Shown here: in pieces, positions 1-21,314 of the stretch
Numbering within the stretch: position 1 is the stretch's first letter
Layout: every line of letters begins with the position of its first letter
Virus record (IMG/VR): IMGVR_UViG_3300025594_000060
Coordinates: 1 to 22,221 of that record
Source: a virus
Direction: 5' to 3' (one strand)
DNA length: 22,221 bases
Made by a program: the position numbers and the translations under genes
The notes under the pieces: generated by a model
Seen by the model: the letters and a program-made list of their open reading frames with translations, nothing else
What the model was told of the DNA's origin: nothing
The model's database searches: none

Positions 1-1
1 T

Positions 2-3000
2 CTTGATATGTATTATGCGAAACTTTCAAACGCATATAACACATCATCAGGAAGTCCAGATAGAAATATTGATAGTAAGTATCCTCAGGATCCTGATGGA
101 TTTGCAAAACAAAGACCTGAATGGGAGATTGTTGGAGCATTTGCATCAGATCCAATTTCAATTTCTGCAATCGAAGCAGGATCTGGTGGAACACCGAATA
201 ATCAGGTTACAGTAACAACAACAGTAGATCATGGTCTTACTGTAGGAACACCAATTAAGATTAATGGTGTCTCGCCAACAGATTATAATATTTCAACAAA
301 AGTTCAAAGTGTTGATTCATCTAATGCAAGAATTTTTACTTATCTTCTTCCAACATTTAGAAAGAATCTTCCAACACCAGGAACTGCATCTGGAGCATCA
401 GTAACAATTGAAACTGATACTGTATCTGGTGCATCCCCTTATATCTTTAACATCTCATTACGTTCTGTTTTTGGAATGAATGGAATGTTGGCAGATGGAA
501 GCAAAGCATCTGGATTCCGTTCAATGGTTGTGGCTCAATTCACTGGAGTCAGTCTTCAAAAGGATGATCGTGCGTTTGTAAAGTATGATAAAACTTCTAG
601 AGGATATGCTGGAATTAATATAACCAAACAATCTGGTGCAGATTTATCGAATGGATCATCATCTACAAATCCAGATCAAGTATATCATTTAGATTCTAAT
701 GCTGTTTATCGTCAAGGATGGGAGCAAACTCACATTCGTATCACAAATGATGCAATTCTACAAATTGTTTCTGTTTTTGCGATTGGATATAACAAACACT
801 TCTCTATTGAAAGTGGTGGAGATGCATCTATTACTAACTCAAACTCTAACTTTGGACAATTGTCTTTGATTGCAGATGGATTTAAAAAAGAAGCATTTGC
901 TAAAGATAATAAGGCATTTATTACAAATATTATCCCTCCAAGATCAACAAATGAAGCAGAAGAAAGTATTGATTGGTTAAGTATTGATGTTGGAGTTACC
1001 ACTGCAGTTGGAGTTTCAACTCACCTATATCTTCGTGGATTTGAGTCGGAAGATAGTATTCCACCAGTTTTGACTCAAGGATACCGTATTGGTGCAAAAG
1101 TAAATGATAAGTTATTTGTAAATGTTGGTTCAGGAACCAGTGAAGCAAACATTTATATGCAGGATGGATTAACATCATCCACTAAAGAATTTAATGTTAC
1201 TGCCAGTGCAGATAGCAAGTTGACTATTGGTTTAAATAATGGATTACAAACTGGAGAAAAAATCATTCTTCTGAGTTCTTCTGCCGATTATCCAGAAAAT
1301 ATTGATGCACATAAACCATACTATGTAATTTCCCTTTCTGATGCGACAGATGTTGCTGATAGACCTAAAATTCAATTAGCATCAACAAAAACAGATGCTG
1401 ATAATAAAAATTTCATTATTTTTTATGGGGGCACTGACCTTAGAGTTGTAAGCAGAATTACTGATAAATCTGCCGGTGATGCTGGTAGTCCGGTTCAATT
1501 TGATTCTACACAAAATCGTTGGTATATTACGGTAAACACTACGAATGGAATTTATTCCACTTTAAACACTTTAGGTGTTGCAGGTATTGGTGCAGAAACT
1601 AATCCTACATTTATTAAGAGAGCACCAGACAATAGAAGTTTGGATGAAAAGATTTATAAGTTCAGAGTTGTTATTCCAAAAGAACTTATAAATGCAAAAA
1701 CACCAGAATCTGGATTTATTATTCAAGAATCCAGCACAACCGGTGTCAGGGAAAATACAGACTTTACTTTATCAACAATTGGTTTAAATGATTTTGAATA
1801 TAATAGAAATCCAAGATTTATTTCGGCATGTTCTCATAGCACAAATACTTCAACTGTAATTACAGAACTTCAACATAATCTTGATGTTGGGGATCAAATT
1901 ATTATCACTAATGTAACAGATACTAATAACACTGTTGGTTCTGCGACTAGTGGATATAATGGAACATTTACTGTTGCAACAGTAAGCGCAGACAATATGT
2001 CATTTACATATTCAAATACAACTGGAAATCCTGGATTATTCAATAACAACACAAGCACCAGAAATCTAAGTCTTCCAAGATTTCAAAGAAATGATTTGCA
2101 GAGTAACTTCTATGTTTATCGTAATGAAGTAATTAATGAATATGTTGAAAATCAACAAGATGGTGTTTATCACATATATGCACTCAAAGCAGACAATAAA
2201 ATTTCTGCAGAATTTACAGAATTGGAGTATGGTCAAAATGTTACTAATTTATATCCTCAAACTGATAGAGACAATGTAAATGATAATCCAGGATCAACTA
2301 AGTCAAGAGCACTTTCTTTTCCAATTGGTGATGTTAATACAAGTGATTTAAAAGGAAGTATCACCAGAGAATCTGCAGATTCTTTCATGACAAAACTTGG
2401 TGGCGGTCTTATTGTAGATTCTGTTTCACCAGATAGTGGTGGTATTTCAACTATAACATTTACTAGAAATCATAAATTTGCCGGTATTTCTACTGCGACA
2501 CTTACTAGTGCAGGATCAGGAACAAGAACTAATGGGACATATTATAATGTAAAACTTTACAATGAAAATACATATTCAACTTGGAATGGTGCCACTGCAC
2601 AAGTTGTCGTATCTGGTAATACTATTAATAGTTTCCATATTCAAGCACCTGGATCCGGATATTCTAATTCAGATACACTTTTCTTTGACAATGCTTCAAT
2701 AGGTGGAAATCAGGATGGTTCTGTTACGGTATCAAATTCTGGTATCTCAACAAATGTTGGGGATGTAGTTCAGATTACTGGTATTGCAACAATTTCTGAT
2801 GCATATTACAGAATTACTAATGTTCCAGGTGCAAATAAAATTGCAATTGCTAAAACTTCTGGTGATCCCTCTACTTTCCAAGGAAGCATTCTTCTTTCCA
2901 GTGGACCTTCAATTTCAGTAAGTTCTTCTACATTCCTAAGTGGTATTACAACCTTTACGTGTTCATCTGCACATGGATTGATTTCTGGTAATAAGTTTAG

Positions 3001-14438: not shown

Positions 14439-14500
14439 AAGTGTCACACTGACCCTTACAGGGTCTTTTTTATGCCTTATAATATAGAGGTAATCAAGCA
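14439..14500 (+). promoter_or_regulatory. Promoter-leader cassette copy 4, intertwined with a terminator
   Basis: AAGTGTCACA (14439-14448), then 29 bases to TATAAT (14478-14483), N5, then GGTAATC (14489-14495). The only -35-like sequence, CTTACA at 14455-14460 with a 17-base spacer, lies in the loop and stem of the terminator. It drives the ATG at 14509. Confidence 0.72.
14451..14471 (+). terminator. Rho-independent terminator after CP12
   Basis: GACCCT (14451-14456) and AGGGTC (14460-14465) form a perfect 6-bp stem with a three-base loop, followed by six T residues. It is a textbook intrinsic terminator ending the CP12 transcript, six bases before the next TATAAT. Confidence 0.85.
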
Positions 14501-14922: not shown

Positions 14923-14975
14923 GTGTCCCAATGCATCCTGAAACCCTCTCAGGATGCCCTATAATATGTTCATAC
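14921..14975 (+). promoter_or_regulatory. Promoter-leader cassette copy 5 with 9-bp hairpin
   Basis: AAGTGTCCCA (14921-14930) is 29 bases before TATAAT (14960-14965). Between them, GCATCCTGA (14933-14941) and TCAGGATGC (14949-14957) form a perfect 9-bp stem with a 7-base loop. This copy lacks GGTAATC but keeps ACAAGGG and CCACC before the ATG at 14989. The hairpin has no T-run, so termination is uncertain. Confidence 0.7.
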
Positions 14976-15777: not shown

Positions 15778-15935
15778 TTGTAAATCTAACAAAGAATGAG
15801 ATAAAGCATCTTGTATATCTTCTGGGTAAAGGAGATGCTGATTATCCTGAATTAAATCAGAATTTACTGAACAAATTAGGATCACTGATTGAAGTCTGTA
15901 CTTGCAAAGAAAAAAATTCTGAGACTGAACAATGA
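15774..15935 (+). CDS. Small helical protein, 53 aa, unknown
   Basis: ATGA overlap on both ends. The sequence MIVNLTKNEIKHLVYLLGKGDADYPELNQNLLNKLGSLIEVCTCKEK is helical, with a C-x-C near the end. The pattern L-T-x-x-E-x-x-x-L..L-L-x-K-L is common in small phage-encoded regulatory-type proteins. Function unknown. Confidence 0.65.
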   Translation: MIVNLTKNEIKHLVYLLGKGDADYPELNQNLLNKLGSLIEVCTCKEKNSETEQ

Positions 15936-16090
15936 AAGCATCATCTGATCGATGGATTGTCTCATGGAAACGTGAGAAGAAAAATGGTTACACTTCAACT
16001 CAGCAAGTTGTAGTCTATGGAATCAAAAATGTTGAGCACATTATCAATACAATGGTTCCGACAGATGAATGGAGTGTAACACCAGCATGA
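15932..16090 (+). CDS. Small basic protein, 52 aa, unknown
   Basis: ATGA overlap on both ends. The sequence MKASSDRWIVSWKREKKNGYTSTQQVVVYGIKNVEHIINTMVPTDEWSVTP has a beta-beta-alpha pattern: strands, then a helix (NVEHIINTM). No motif beyond that. Confidence 0.65.
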   Translation: MKASSDRWIVSWKREKKNGYTSTQQVVVYGIKNVEHIINTMVPTDEWSVTPA

Positions 16091-16221
16091 CTGCTAAAGA
16101 AAAACTTTTATTCTTATCATCTTTTATCTGGGTTTTACATTGGGGAACATGTCTTACATCTTTCATAGTGGATACGGTTATTCTCAAAAACGGTGTGAGG
16201 ATATTGCCCATTGGTTTTTGA
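16087..16221 (+). CDS. Short hydrophobic ORF, 44 aa, overlapping metallopeptidase
   Basis: ATGA overlap upstream. The sequence KEKLLFLSSFIWVLHWGTCLTSFIVDTVILKNG is hydrophobic and could span the membrane. The last 73 bases overlap the metallopeptidase gene in another frame. Either it is a true small membrane peptide or only the coupled leader that brings ribosomes to the next start. Confidence 0.45.
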   Translation: MTAKEKLLFLSSFIWVLHWGTCLTSFIVDTVILKNGVRILPIGF

Positions 16222-16565
16222 GTGAATTTTTCCCACGACACAAAATTGTGGTAGAGATTGAACATAAAGGTCTCAAACGTGATGGTGTTGTTGGGTATTG
16301 TGATGTGATTGGTAATGATTATCGGCCACGACACTTCTTGATTGAACTTCAGGCACGTATGTCTGAGGAGATGTATATAAAAACTCTTTTTCATGAACTG
16401 ACTCATCTGGCACAGTGGGTAGGTGGTTCTCTGCGGTTTCATCATGGAAAAATGAGGTATTGTCAGGAACCGGTGGAGAATTATGATTATTGGGATCAAC
16501 CACATGAAATTGAGGCACGGAAGGAAGAAGTAAGGCTATATGATCAGTGGTTAAATGAGGAATAG
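16149..16565 (+). CDS. SprT-like HExxH zinc metallopeptidase, 138 aa
   Basis: The zinc-binding motif F-H-E-L-T-H-L-A-Q-W (H82, E83, H86) lies in a helix after SEEMYIKTL. A downstream acidic segment, QPHEIEARKEE (residues 118-127), could supply the third ligand, as in minimal zincin peptidases. The early part (KIVVEIEHKGLKRDGVVGYCDVIGN...HFLIEL) is the beta layer of that fold. This compact form, with no extra domains, is common in phages of marine cyanobacteria (recalled, not searched). The substrate is unknown; host protein or phage protein turnover is possible. The ATG at 16149 has TTGGGGA upstream and fits better than the in-frame TTG at 16140. Confidence 0.72.
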   Translation: MSYIFHSGYGYSQKRCEDIAHWFLSEFFPRHKIVVEIEHKGLKRDGVVGYCDVIGNDYRPRHFLIELQARMSEEMYIKTLFHELTHLAQWVGGSLRFHHGKMRYCQEPVENYDYWDQPHEIEARKEEVRLYDQWLNEE

Positions 16566-16596
16566 AGTGTGCCAGTCGGCAAACCGGTTCAGATGC

Positions 16597-17841: not shown

Positions 17842-17873
17842 ATGAATCTTTCAAACTCACTTGAAAGATTCAT
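17842..17873 (+). terminator. 13-bp perfect hairpin in the intergenic gap
   Basis: ATGAATCTTTCAA (17842-17854) and TTGAAAGATTCAT (17861-17873) are perfectly complementary around a six-base loop, ACTCAC. No T-run follows (ATATACATGG), so it may be a processing or stability element, or an attenuator, between the nuclease-like gene and the next one rather than a full terminator. Confidence 0.5.
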
Positions 17874-17911
17874 ATATACATGGTATTCTTGAAACAACCT
17901 TTAAAAAAACA

Positions 17912-18988
17912 ATGAGTAAGCATTCCTTCGGCGTAATTAACGCACAAAAATTTCCAAAAGCACCCGATTGTAAAGAGGGGTATGAATGGATTGATGGTGG
18001 AGATGTTAAGATGATCCCAATTGAAAATTGGGAGTCTGATTATGAGTGTGATGCAAATACTAAAATAAATGATCACACAAATTATGAAAAAGTAGAGAGT
18101 AATTTACAAGCAACGGGATTTGATCATTCTTTTGAACCAGGACATGCAGTTCCTATCCCTGGGACAAATAATGTTTCAGGAAAGAGTGCTAGAACTCGTC
18201 ATAATATTCTTAAAAACAATGGATATAAGTATTATCCAACTAGGTTAATGACACCTGTTGAGGGATATGATGAAAGAATATCATCATTTTCTGAGGCGAT
18301 GTCTGCTGATCTGCAACATAAACCACATAGAGAATTGAGTATGAAGCAAATTGCACAACAAATGTGGGCACAAAAAGATAAAGGTATTTCCTGGTATCAT
18401 GGGCAACCCGTTAATCCTGTGACCGGAGAAATTATCTATGGGGATGATGAATTTGATCATGCTTATGATACAGAGTTTGGAATCAATCAGGTATTTTGGC
18501 ATAAAGTTCCAAGGGGAACTATCAGAAATTTAGTAAACAAAGGATTTTCCACTGCTGTGAAAATCAATGATAAAGATGAGAGAGTAATTAAGCAAGAAGT
18601 CAAAGATCATGAACTTGGAAATGGTAATGATGGATATAAAGTCAGTTTGATTTGTATGGATGACGCTGGCGCAAATGCTCCTGCTAAATTGTGGAATTTG
18701 TTTATGAATCCAAATAATAAGATTCGTCACATTATTTTCACTAAAAAAGCACAAACGGCAGAAGAAGTGAAAACAATGAGAGAGACCTGGAGAAAAACTT
18801 TGATTAATTATGCAAAGATTGCTATTCAGTTTTCTCTGCAAAATAAATATATTTCTCCCGAAACAAGGGAAGAATTTATTAATGAGCGACTTCATATAAT
18901 GTTTGCAAATTTTGAACTTTATGGGTATAATCATCTTGAGGATGAGGAAAATTATGTGAAGATTGATATGTTTCGTGAGTATGTTTGA
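17912..18988 (+). CDS. Unrecognised 358-aa protein of the modification block
   Basis: ATG 17912 is used because the in-frame TTG at 17861 lies in the hairpin stem; neither has a strong ribosome-binding site. The soluble protein contains KSARTRHNILKNNGYKYYPTRLM, a helical region (SFSEAMSADLQHKPHRELSMKQIAQQMWAQKDKG), WYHGQPVNPVTGEIIYGDDEFDHAYDTEFG, FWHKVPRGTIRNLVNKGF and a helical C-terminus. The middle, with many His, Tyr and charged residues, could be a nucleic-acid-binding or nuclease domain, but I see no known catalytic motif. Its place between a nuclease-like gene and a split DNA methyltransferase suggests a DNA-specificity or accessory role. Function unknown. Confidence 0.7.
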   Translation: MSKHSFGVINAQKFPKAPDCKEGYEWIDGGDVKMIPIENWESDYECDANTKINDHTNYEKVESNLQATGFDHSFEPGHAVPIPGTNNVSGKSARTRHNILKNNGYKYYPTRLMTPVEGYDERISSFSEAMSADLQHKPHRELSMKQIAQQMWAQKDKGISWYHGQPVNPVTGEIIYGDDEFDHAYDTEFGINQVFWHKVPRGTIRNLVNKGFSTAVKINDKDERVIKQEVKDHELGNGNDGYKVSLICMDDAGANAPAKLWNLFMNPNNKIRHIIFTKKAQTAEEVKTMRETWRKTLINYAKIAIQFSLQNKYISPETREEFINERLHIMFANFELYGYNHLEDEENYVKIDMFREYV

Positions 18989-19071: not shown

Positions 19072-19995
19072 ATGCAGTTTGATATAATAGTAACGAATCC
19101 ACCATTTCAGGATTCTACCAATAAGAAGAAGACACAACATAAGCTATGGATTGACTTTACACAGAAAACATTCAGTGAGTGGTTAAAACCTGGAGGTATT
19201 CTCCTTCAGGTTTCTCCTAGTAGTTTCTTATCACCATCCAGTAAGATTCTGCAACTGTTTAAGTCTAAGGCAGTGAAGTTTCTGAACTTAGATACAAAAA
19301 CTTATTTTCCTGAAGTGGGAAGCACGTTCGCCGACTATATGGTCTCCAACCGTCCCGGCATCGAAAAAACTAAAGTTGTTACTCAAGACGGTACATTTGA
19401 CTGTAAAATAGATGATTCAGTGTTCTATTTGCCTATAGATTTATCAGAAAATGCCTTATCTGTTCATAATAAGGTAATGTTTGAGATAAGAGAGCACCTT
19501 GATGTAAGATATGATTATGTGACGTGTCATAACGTGAATTTGCTACGGGAGACTGGTATCATCAATAAGTGGGATAACTGTTGTGACATTAAAACTAAAC
19601 AAGAGTTTATTGATAGTCATCCAATTCTACACACAAACAAACAAACTTGGTATTCACGAATTCGACAGGATTGGGCATCAAAGAAGAAAGTAATGTGGTC
19701 ACGGAGTGGATATACAAAACCAGTTTATGATGATGGTATTTTAGGTGGTACTGATATGGTATATTATGTGTTGGTGAATGATAAAGAATCGGGAGAGAAT
19801 CTAACACATAACCTGAATAGTACGCTAATGAAGTATATTCTCAAGACTGCAAAATGGTCTGGGTTTGGTAATGAGAAAGTATTTTGTAGGTTGCCAAATT
19901 TACCAATTGATTGTAAAATGAGTGATGATGATGTGTTTGATTTCTTCAACATCACAGAACAAGAGAGAGTGTATGTCAGACAAATTGTGGGATGA
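19072..19995 (+). CDS. N6-adenine DNA methyltransferase, C-terminal half (motif IV onward)
   Basis: A 307-residue protein that begins directly with motif IV: MQFDIIVTNPPFQ (N9-P-P-F12), the catalytic N/D-P-P-Y/F of amino methyltransferases that flips and holds the target adenine. Next come WIDFTQKTFSEWLKPGGILL..SPSSFL (30-53) and YFPEVGSTFADYMVSN (78-93), the order seen in Eco57I-like and type I HsdM enzymes. The rest (VHNKVMFEIREHLDVRYDY... to the end) fits a target-recognition domain. The S-adenosylmethionine-binding motif I is missing here and is found in the next gene. In a normal gamma-class enzyme this piece would follow that one, so the gene order is inverted. It probably needs the partner to work. 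Confidence 0.82.
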   Translation: MQFDIIVTNPPFQDSTNKKKTQHKLWIDFTQKTFSEWLKPGGILLQVSPSSFLSPSSKILQLFKSKAVKFLNLDTKTYFPEVGSTFADYMVSNRPGIEKTKVVTQDGTFDCKIDDSVFYLPIDLSENALSVHNKVMFEIREHLDVRYDYVTCHNVNLLRETGIINKWDNCCDIKTKQEFIDSHPILHTNKQTWYSRIRQDWASKKKVMWSRSGYTKPVYDDGILGGTDMVYYVLVNDKESGENLTHNLNSTLMKYILKTAKWSGFGNEKVFCRLPNLPIDCKMSDDDVFDFFNITEQERVYVRQIVG

Positions 19996-20443
19996 AGTAA
20001 AGAATAGGATGAATGATCACTCTTATATGGGTGAGATTAATCGTGACGAATACAGAGTCAAAGTAACAGCCGAGGTTTTTACTCCGACTGATTTGGTGAT
20101 AAGAATGATTCGTGAATGTGGTACGGATGAGTTTGTATCAGGCAAAACAGTTCTTGACCCTGCATGTGGAGATGGTCAGTTTCTAACAGCAGTCAAGTGG
20201 GTGAAAGTGTTGTTTCATAATATGAGTGAGGAAGATGCACTTAAAGATATCTATGGTGTGGATATTATGAGAGATAATGTTGACCTATGTAAGAAAAGAT
20301 TGGGAGGAGGAAAAATATTAATGGGTAATACATTAGATCCTGCAAAGAGATTAGACGGTCAAAGTGATAGTGAACATGATATGATGAAGTTTCTATTTCT
20401 AGCACAGACAACGGTCTATAGTGCCGAAGCAATGGACACCTAA
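19973..20443 (+). CDS. N6-adenine DNA methyltransferase, N-terminal half (motifs X, I-III)
   Basis: A 156-residue protein. EVFTPTDLVIRMI (34-46) is the F-T-P motif X. VLDPACGDGQFLTA (60-73) is motif I, binding S-adenosylmethionine. YGVDIMRDNVDLCKKRL (94-110) covers motif II, and KILMGNTLDP (114-123) covers motif III. It stops just where motif IV would start; that motif opens the gene before it. ATG 19973 lies inside the end of the upstream half, a 23-base overlap that should couple their synthesis. The ~30 residues after motif III (SDSEHDMMKFLFLAQTTVYSAEAMDT) have no methyltransferase match and could be a docking tail. Confidence 0.85.
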   Translation: MSDKLWDEVKNRMNDHSYMGEINRDEYRVKVTAEVFTPTDLVIRMIRECGTDEFVSGKTVLDPACGDGQFLTAVKWVKVLFHNMSEEDALKDIYGVDIMRDNVDLCKKRLGGGKILMGNTLDPAKRLDGQSDSEHDMMKFLFLAQTTVYSAEAMDT

Positions 20444-20445
20444 AC

Positions 20446-20507
20446 AAGTGGCACAGGGTGTCCTGAAACCCCACCAGGATGCCTTATAATACAGAGGTAA
20501 TCAAGGG
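20446..20507 (+). promoter_or_regulatory. Promoter-leader cassette copy 6
   Basis: AAGTGGCACA (20446-20455), 29 bases, TATAAT (20485-20490), N5, GGTAATC (20496-20502), AAGGG. A short stem TCCTG/CAGGA (20461-20465 and 20475-20479) lies where the -35 box should be, and the sequence CCTGAAACCC is shared with copy 5. It drives the ATG at 20521 just after the methyltransferase genes. Confidence 0.72.
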
Positions 20508-20520
20508 AACACCACTCACC

Positions 20521-20790
20521 ATGCAAATCACCAACAATGTCACCACGGTTGATTTCTTTCCTGAGGCATTCATTGCCGAGGCAGATGAAGAGAAAGGAAT
20601 GATCACTGTGGTCAAACGTTTTCAGAAACGTGTTACTTTCAATGCTAATGGTCTGAAGTCTTATTCAACTGTGACGGCACTGAATGCACGTAATGAGTGG
20701 GACACACGTATTGCGAATGGTGCGGTGGTAACTGATTTCAATCTTGACAAAATGCCACGTTCAGAGTATACTCCTATGGCAGTAGGTTGA
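20521..20790 (+). CDS. Small beta-rich protein, 89 aa, unknown
   Basis: The ATG at 20521 was chosen because AAGGGAACACC leads into it; an in-frame upstream extension would run through the promoter. The sequence (VTTVDFFPEAFIAEADEEKGMITVVKRFQKRVTFNANGLKSYSTVTALNARNEWDT) is mostly beta strands. C-ending codons are common, as in the other cassette-driven genes. No family recognised. Its 3' end contains a consensus promoter. Confidence 0.7.
   Translation: MQITNNVTTVDFFPEAFIAEADEEKGMITVVKRFQKRVTFNANGLKSYSTVTALNARNEWDTRIANGAVVTDFNLDKMPRSEYTPMAVG
20744..20772 (+). promoter_or_regulatory. Consensus promoter inside the 3' end of a gene (TTGACA-N17-TATACT)
   Basis: Perfect TTGACA at 20744-20749 and TATACT (5/6) at 20767-20772 with a 17-base spacer. 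Transcription would start near 20779, giving a leader of only about 11 bases to the ATG at 20790. Confidence 0.6.
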
Positions 20791-20936
20791 TGAGTAAGGT
20801 TAATTTTATTCAATACATGCTGGCATTTATCATCACGATGTTCGCAATGTCATCTTATTTGATGTTCCTTGCAGAACGTGACACCAAAATGATGAACTAT
20901 TATGACTCAACAATCGAATCAAGAGTTCGTGAATGA
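20790..20936 (+). CDS. Single-helix membrane protein, 48 aa
   Basis: TGATG overlap with the upstream stop. A transmembrane helix (FIQYMLAFIITMFAMSSYLMFLAE, residues ~6-29) is followed by a short polar tail. Its 3' end overlaps the next gene by 35 bases in another frame. Function unknown; a holin-like or host-membrane role cannot be excluded, but one helix gives no evidence for it. Confidence 0.6.
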   Translation: MSKVNFIQYMLAFIITMFAMSSYLMFLAERDTKMMNYYDSTIESRVRE

Positions 20937-21045
20937 CTTGTTTGACAAACTCTTTAAGCACACAGACACGGACATGATTGATTTGCACGATGATGATTCT
21001 TGTGATGACCATCTCCAATTTGAAAAACTCATTCTTGACTTCTAA
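20902..21045 (+). CDS. Small acidic protein, 47 aa, unknown
   Basis: The ATG at 20902 starts within the membrane-protein gene; the ribosome-binding site is weak. The sequence MTQQSNQEFVNDLFDKLFKHTDTDMIDLHDDDSCDDHLQFEKLILDF is acidic, with an Asp-rich middle and a C-terminal helix ending in a hydrophobic L-I-L-D-F. It overlaps the next gene by one base (TAATG). Confidence 0.55.
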   Translation: MTQQSNQEFVNDLFDKLFKHTDTDMIDLHDDDSCDDHLQFEKLILDF

Positions 21046-21314
21046 TGACTGATCTAACTTTTTCTGGTGTATTTGTTACTTGTGAAGATTATGGATGCAT
21101 TTATACTGTTTGCACTGAAGGTGAATTGTTTTATGCACCTATTCATAATGATGGAAAGATAGATTTTGATGAATTTAATATGGTAGATTTTTGGGAATGT
21201 GATTTGGATGTGGAAGAATTGGAGGAGATACAATCAAAGTTAATTGATATGATGCAAATTGCCGGACTGTATTTCAAATCACAACCAATTGAATTATCAG
21301 GAGTTAATGAATGA
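21045..21314 (+). CDS. Small acidic protein, 89 aa, unknown
   Basis: TAATG coupling upstream and ATGA downstream. The sequence TFSGVFVTCEDYGCIYTVCTEGELFYAPIHNDGKIDFDEFNMVDFWECDLDVEELEEIQSKL has a beta start with four cysteines (C12, C18, C23, C52) and an acidic helix. The cysteine spacing is not a clear metal site. Unknown function. Confidence 0.68.
   Translation: MTDLTFSGVFVTCEDYGCIYTVCTEGELFYAPIHNDGKIDFDEFNMVDFWECDLDVEELEEIQSKLIDMMQIAGLYFKSQPIELSGVNE

Follow-up and report, generated by a model that had tools for sequence, protein, structure and literature searches.

Can two adjacent phage genes, each of them lacking half of the motifs of a DNA methyltransferase, jointly encode a single enzyme, and what does their arrangement say about the origin of permuted motif orders in DNA methyltransferases, which is a long-standing question? 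Genes A and B (Table 1) raise both issues. They are situated in the IMG/VR virus record IMGVR_UViG_3300025594_000060, whose 22,221 bases are the whole stretch of DNA that was analyzed and are referred to as the window. Among isolates, Synechococcus phage S-SKS1 covers the largest part of the window (39%, at a mean identity of 90%), and the source virus is likely marine and, judging from this coverage, cyanophage-like. From the data presented here it appears likely that A and B constitute a two-subunit N6-adenine methyltransferase, which probably belongs to a phage-borne restriction-modification cassette together with the neighboring gene U; enzymatic activity, heterodimer formation, target and cleavage are inferred.

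Table 1. Coordinates of the features described in this study
Feature	Position in the window	Strand	Remarks
Gene A, catalytic and target-recognition half of a gamma-type N6-adenine methyltransferase	19072..19995	+	Starts with motif IV (NPPF); Eco57I, phrog_3689, TaqI fold match
Gene B, AdoMet-binding half, 156 aa	19973..20443	+	FTPT (motif X), DPACGDGQF (motif I), YGVDIMRDNV (motif II region), then a motif III-like stretch; N6_Mtase, phrog_21201
Overlap of A end and B start, 23 bases	19973..19995	+	Translational coupling likely, inferred
Gene U, probable PD-(D/E)XK restriction-endonuclease-like protein, 380 aa	16679..17821	+	HinP1I/MspI-like fold (moderate scores)
Gene V, 375-aa ORF, unknown function	17861..18988	+	Optional member between U and A

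Anatomy of genes A and B

Gene A encodes 307 amino acids and opens with MQFDIIVTNPPF. NPPF is located at residues 9-12, and no part of a methylase lies ahead of motif IV. Gene B ends without a motif IV. Its start was assigned to the ATG at 19973 in preference to the GTG at 19922 given in the mechanical ORF list; an ATG at this position relative to the A stop codon is conserved in 27 of 28 loci. In the family represented by the window, A is thus devoid of an AdoMet half of its own and B of a catalytic half. A matches positions 73-159 of the 171 positions of the Pfam profile Eco57I (E 9.1e-8), B positions 24-94 of the 311 of N6_Mtase (E 1.4e-6), and the best PHROGs, phrog_3689 for A (E 2.9e-18) and phrog_21201 for B (E 1.6e-15), are both labelled DNA methyltransferase. 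Because these Pfam and PHROG pieces are complementary, A and B are regarded as halves of one enzyme. The Pfam domain TaqI_C remained below the cut-off in the sequence of A, and no match to Pfam N6_N4_Mtase (PF01555) was obtained with either gene.

Gamma-class enzymes show the motif order X-I-II-III-IV-VIII-TRD (PMC2890505). The motif content of this class (NPP[YF] as motif IV, DPxxGxG as motif I, FTP as motif X) is present, spread across the two genes, and the order within one chain is absent, A with motif IV onward preceding B with motifs X to III. The order IV-VIII-TRD-X-I-II-III of the beta class is found in the gene order and in a joined model of the two proteins, the halves being separate chains. 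The beta-class motif IV D/SPPY is absent, A reading NPPF. Complementary motif sets on two genes also occur in naturally split, AquI-like methyltransferases. A preliminary description, made from the sequence alone, had claimed complementary halves in swapped order with a cut between motifs III and IV, which was confirmed by the motifs and the Pfam pieces, and a coupling of the genes by an overlap of 23 bases; the overlap exists, the coupling itself is inferred.

Conservation and selection

Scans of viral contigs yielded 33 close loci (six via B and 27 via A) on 28 distinct contigs; in four of these contigs, both genes are 100% identical to those of the window. All 33 loci show A and then B on one strand, the A frame being broken in one of them (L036). 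In 23-row alignments of A and of B, whose members are 58-100% identical, NPPF, FTPT and DPACGDGQF are invariant. Purifying selection acts on both genes: of 435 pairs each, 93 were usable for A (median dN/dS 0.149) and 80 for B (median 0.176); the value for U is 0.150 (50 usable pairs). The distances of A and B co-vary strongly (Mantel r = 0.881 for 29 loci, reached by none of 2000 permutations), while co-variation with U is weaker (A-U, r 0.60; B-U, r 0.615). Common phage descent inflates all three values.

It might be argued that A and B are non-functional remnants left by the decay of one methylase or of two different ones. The absence of half of the motifs from each gene and the broken A frame of L036 would suit decay. 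Against it stand the low dN/dS values, the invariant motifs and the recurrence of the split in phages and bacteria, and this explanation can practically be ruled out. Chance arrangement, simple decay or sequencing error were rejected on the grounds of the A-B order in 33 of 33 loci, the invariant motifs and the low dN/dS. Since the same layout recurs in many viruses and some bacteria, A and B very probably represent a stable enzyme design and not a broken gene, the activity being untested.

Predicted structure of the joined proteins

AlphaFold2 was run on an in-silico joining of the A and B frames, which had been aligned with 72 relatives of the A, B or fused type. The joined protein is predicted to fold as one enzyme (pLDDT 84.9, pTM 0.84). 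As artificial joining forces proximity, the model is support and not proof. In VIA alignments, the beta-class enzymes MboIIA (Z 12.2, 155 residues aligned, rmsd 3.3) and M1.HpyAVI-SAM (Z 11.5, 144 aligned) scored best and were matched across the joint, both by model residues 1..412, as were CcrM (Z 10.5, 1..412/413) and RsrI (Z 10.4, 1..442/443). These beta-class alignments cover only about 140-175 residues, most of the recognition domain of A lying outside them. The gamma-class enzymes TaqI (VIA Z 11.2, 252 aligned, model 1..281 corresponding to chain 97..411), CamA (Z 10.0-10.5, 283-284 aligned, model 1..294) and BseCI (model 1..299) align through A alone, the aligned parts beginning at chain residues 97, 157 and 125, respectively. 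By structure alignment, a TaqI-like recognition domain was found in A after the catalytic half. According to the note of the tool, VIA Z gaps near 1 are close to ties. The top Foldseek matches were CamA, ranking first, BrxX, TaqI and BseCI, all with poor rmsd (~8-15), and this ranking does not discriminate between gamma and beta order. The three-dimensional alignments of the predicted model fit gamma-class parts in beta-class order, which we consider the likely arrangement.

In the mechanism we propose, B would provide motifs X, I, II and III, i.e. the AdoMet-binding strands, and A would contribute everything from motif IV onward, including its catalytic loop NPPF, together with a target-recognition domain of the TaqI/CamA type. 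Strand beta1 of B is inferred to pair with the first strand of A (QFDIIVTNPPF), which would complete the Rossmann sheet and place AdoMet beside NPPF. A and then B would probably be translated as a coupled pair, giving a beta-class motif order from gamma-class parts.

Extended partners and natural fusions in phages

An alignment scan with B revealed 180 viral relatives, 80 of which were kept, and a scan with U gave 51 loci. The following counts refer to 68 distinct B sequences in the fetched viral contigs. Half of them (34) are preceded by an A-type ORF in which NPP comes after 40 residues or fewer; U is present in all 34 cases and V in ten. Another 22 follow an A-type ORF with at least 80 residues before NPP, none of them with U within the stretch examined. 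The N-terminal region of these 22 extended genes ranges from an apparently complete AdoMet half (L083, FDPACGYGTF) to sequences unrecognisable by eye (L078, L096, L098). Three B sequences are part of one-gene A-B fusions behind U (L147, L156, L157), seven are cut by the contig or locus end, and two have no intact A directly upstream (L036 with its broken A, and L109). In the L147 fusion, the Eco57I profile (positions 75-154) matches residues 3-64 with 26.2 bits (cut-off 25.3) and the N6_Mtase profile (19-87) residues 354-428 with 31.0 bits (cut-off 20.4). L157 has the same order, Eco57I being below the cut-off. A tandem pair of A-type genes ahead of a single B was observed in L101 (1631-3999).

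Among named phages, seven of 48 matches were examined. Aeromonas phages ZPAH1 and phiAS5 possess a single fused A-B gene, and PHROG 11371 matches both fused forms over nearly their full length. This PHROG, labelled unknown function, appears to be a one-gene permuted A-B methylase (L041 2218-3378, L042 2155-3408). In Shigella phage PSD9 and Aeromonas phage Ah1, B lies behind an A-type gene, as it does in Klebsiella phage KpV477, where the A-type gene lies in two ORFs. The PSD9 and KpV477 genes sit between the genes for DNA primase and dCTP or nucleoside triphosphate pyrophosphatase, the interval in which T4 has dam. By eye only, the N-terminal stretch of the A-type genes of PSD9 (L039 1485-2984) and KpV477 (L040 1526-2671) resembles GIY-YIG/T5orf172. 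Synechococcus phage Bellamy carries the B-like gp88 (E 3e-11) two genes behind an A-type gene; in gp86-gp88 (L038 2638-4853) the A-type gene is followed by gp87 and then by gp88, whose motif I reads FMDNSAGSGNF, and the gp87 stretch DGLPNVIQFKFK looks nuclease-like by eye. ACG-2014f has an A-like gene (gp191), and no B match was found within its 6.9-kb locus.

A further possibility is that B is a separate AdoMet-binding regulator or decoy and that A borrows its AdoMet half from another protein. In favor of it, many A-type partners beside B keep an N-terminal half, which is often degenerate, L101 has two A-type genes per B, and gp191 of ACG-2014f is A-like without a B match. On the other hand, natural A-B fusions exist with and without U, A and B co-vary, and the joined halves form one beta-ordered domain in the model. 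We therefore regard this reading as very unlikely and retain that of A and B as parts of one enzyme.

Assembly of the halves into one gamma-type enzyme of beta-like order had also been claimed in the preliminary description and is supported by the joined model, the fusions and the co-variation, with activity untested. Of the checks proposed there, structure prediction gave the model matching M1.HpyAVI-SAM across the joint (the AdoMet pocket itself is inferred), the Pfam and homologue searches showed complementary halves whose homologues include one-gene A-B fusions and are not halves of two different enzymes, and the same split was found in all close phage loci. The nuclease-like ORF of U had been missed.

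Bacterial relatives and the direction of change

One genome scan with B gave 149 bacterial relatives, 80 of which were kept. In 50 of these 80 loci, the A-type gene is located downstream of B (B then b'A). Four have A upstream of B and no U in the stretch examined, and six contain U, A and B, with U upstream in two and convergent in four; the latter six belong to two Micrococcales MAGs, a Cellulomonas MAG, Geodermatophilus, a Limnochordia MAG and Curtobacterium ammoniigenes NBRC 101786, in which the three genes are carried on a 678-kb contig. Fifteen loci have no NPP neighbor and five gave no match to the B profile. NPP within the same ORF as B was detected in none of the 75 bacterial loci with a B match. 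Motif I of B looks intact in all 50 B-then-A loci (FLEPACG[DNET]G[NA]F). In the partner's own motif I, K[ST]G replaces the expected GxG (FLDPxxK[ST]GVF in 49 loci, FLDIGCKSGVF in one), so that the first glycine is a lysine in 50 of 50 (including L187, L205 and L199). In L187, a gene for a T5orf172-helicase protein directly follows the B-then-A pair. The bacterial loci indicate that B, as a separate AdoMet half, is likely a broad family in which the gene order is not fixed.

Simple complementation is contradicted by the A-type partners that keep their own N-terminal half, in 22 of 68 viral and 50 of 80 bacterial loci. At those loci, B can therefore not just occupy a vacant position. In a tree of AdoMet halves, B (52 rows) and the partners' own halves, B' (10 rows), are separate (94/83). 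Five B genes whose A partners bear an N-terminal half nest among the U-linked B genes in this tree, which implies partner exchange. The tree is limited by long branches, 136 columns and an arbitrary root. The idea that B arose recently, lineage by lineage, as a duplicate of the AdoMet half of its partner is unsupported, given the separation of B and B', evidence that is weak in view of the long branches.

For circular permutation, models in print invoke either duplication/truncation or fission/fusion (PMC3320104, PMC5944983). Duplication plus truncation has been proposed as a route, and intermediates among DNA methyltransferases are stated as documented, citing Jeltsch 1999 (PMC3320104). It is conceivable that a single-chain permuted A-B came first and was split later, in which case the window would not be a step towards permutation. 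In line with this, fused forms are scattered over distant phages (L147, L156 and L157; ZPAH1; phiAS5), and fused rows branch outside a 40-row clade of split B (96/99), their own placements being mostly unresolved. By contrast, B'-A plus B pairs resemble partial-duplication intermediates, and 50 bacterial loci are ordered B then b'A. On balance, we lean slightly against fission. The forms found agree with each model in part and leave the direction undecided. According to the preliminary description, a natural circular permutation may have been caught at the two-gene stage. Support for this is only partial, given that the split is common and well conserved, that no direction of change has been established and that B precedes A in 50 of 80 bacterial loci.

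A bolder reading is that of a distinct class of N6-adenine methyltransferases, in which a conserved AdoMet subunit B completes exchangeable A subunits in trans. The partner's AdoMet half would be intact-looking or degenerate in some lineages and wholly absent in the window family, the fused A-B genes would show how gamma order becomes beta order, several forms of the permutation path would be extant, and B would be a common module for specificity swapping. As a joint claim, this reading may just as well prove wrong as right.

Genes U and V and the S-SKS1 slot

The model of U (pLDDT 89.8) was matched by Foldseek to HinP1I (E 0.011, probability 0.93). VIA aligned it with HinP1I (Z 7.3, 213 residues, rmsd 5.2) and MspI (Z 5.5), and further matches were ACE1, Hjc and EcoRV; these five make up the first eleven VIA rows, the twelfth being influenza polymerase. 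The scores are moderate, as no Foldseek E value is below 0.001 and the best VIA Z of 7.3 is less than 8, the higher-trust level of the tool. HinP1I, MspI, ACE1, Hjc and EcoRV share the PD-(D/E)XK fold, and the active-site motif of HinP1I and MspI is D...(Q/N/E/S)xK. Residues D110 and K126 of U do not vary across 33 rows, the sequence in the window being GD-x11-SxSxK. Searches of Pfam, PHROGs, PADLOC, NCBIfam and PDB sequences gave no convincing family for U, and a plasmid search with U gave no match. U is likely a PD-(D/E)XK endonuclease-like protein resembling HinP1I and MspI, cleavage being inferred. For V, family searches gave nothing above the cut-off; its stop codon overlaps the A start in L025 and L034.

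A relative of U lies upstream of A in 33 of 33 close viral loci. In 16 of 28 loci, the U stop and the A start overlap within the string T(G/A)ATG, and V or other sequence intervenes in the rest. U also occurs without A or B in the cyanophages P-RSM6 and S-SZBM1 and in eight viral loci with ~4 kb of room downstream (five more are cut off), and U and A-B are hence not strictly linked. S-SKS1 shares synteny with the window on either side of the cassette (window positions 15928-16591, 85%; 20479-21302, 83%). The same slot in S-SKS1 holds a 176-aa protein followed by a DPPY beta-class methylase (Pfam N6_N4_Mtase, E 3.5e-36). The 176-aa protein contains SPDF...DIECK, a string resembling a PD-ExK site, has no convincing Pfam family and belongs to a PHROG of unknown function. 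Differing nuclease-like/methylase pairs at one slot would suit restriction-modification cassettes exchanged among cyanophages, a possibility that is inferred. No B match was detected in the S-SKS1 record NC_020851 at E 1e-5. This record encodes a 459-aa Eco57I-like protein with NYPY instead of NPPY (L246 6989-8368, minus strand). Short repeats, 87-95% identical, occur in the window at 14472-14493, 14936-14966 and 20461-20500, and S-SKS1 has them too.

Phage-borne orphan methylases are common. It is possible that the heterodimeric methylase is such an orphan modification enzyme directed against host nucleases, and that U is an independent nuclease, e.g. for host DNA breakdown, in the same variable region. 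This is favored by the occurrence of U alone in P-RSM6, S-SZBM1 and the eight loci with room, and by the weaker co-variation of A and B with U. The constant position of U upstream of A and the frequent stop/start overlap speak against it, as do the six bacterial loci carrying U, A and B in two gene orientations and the other nuclease-like/methylase pair at the S-SKS1 slot. In the restriction-modification reading, which we prefer, A-B would methylate one target and protect the phage DNA, and U would cut unprotected competitor or host DNA in a type II-like manner.

Significance

The computation establishes the anatomy, conservation, purifying selection, co-variation, natural fusions, a predicted joint fold and a nuclease-like neighbor. 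A physical heterodimer, methylation, the target, and cleavage by U with its cognate specificity are inferred, there being no activity or interaction data. Beyond the preliminary description, this work adds the recurrence in phages and bacteria, natural one-gene fusions, partners whose second AdoMet half looks degenerate, and a neighbor resembling a nuclease. As split, partly duplicated-looking and fused forms coexist in phages and a cultured bacterium, both permutation models become biochemically testable. The data suggest modular methylases with a single AdoMet subunit serving different recognition subunits, offer a candidate natural split m6A writer for targeted methylation and point to restriction-modification-like cassettes swapped between cyanophages at one genomic slot.

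Comparison with known systems

A report of a split or permuted gamma-class adenine methylase was not found in the literature searched (titles and abstract openings; most subscription papers and REBASE were outside the scope), which is no proof of absence. A-B shares with the gamma-class enzymes M.TaqI, CamA and M.BseCI (Eco57I / N6_Mtase) NPPF as motif IV, FTP as motif X, DPACGDG as motif I and the TaqI/CamA-like recognition domain, but consists of two chains, and motifs IV-VIII-TRD are encoded before X-I-II-III. In genome order, IV-VIII-TRD-X-I-III, it corresponds to the beta-class enzymes MboIIA, M1.HpyAVI, RsrI and CcrM, with which the joined model aligns across the halves. What separates it from this class is NPPF in place of D/SPPY, the lack of an N6_N4_Mtase match and the two polypeptides. 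The PHROGs 21201, 3689 and 11371 match B, A and the fused forms, respectively, yet are separate families, of which 11371 is not labelled methylase. U finds its best fold match in HinP1I and MspI and has a conserved D-x13-S-x-K, but is longer, its 380 aa comparing with 241-262 in the matched chains; the scores are only moderate, and a sequence match is lacking.

Like M.AquI and M.EcoHK31I, A-B would be one methylase from two polypeptides (PMC3404938). Those are, however, C5 enzymes, AquI being cut in the variable region and EcoHK31I having motif IX alone apart, whereas A-B is adenine-type, cut between the AdoMet and catalytic halves, and swapped in order. The permuted motif order of A-B has its counterpart in the circularly permuted C5 methylases M.BssHII and M.Alw26I. 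Unlike A-B, these are single-chain enzymes permuted in the variable region, while the permutation point of the gamma-type A-B lies between motifs III and IV, and its split, fused and partly duplicated-looking forms exist side by side.
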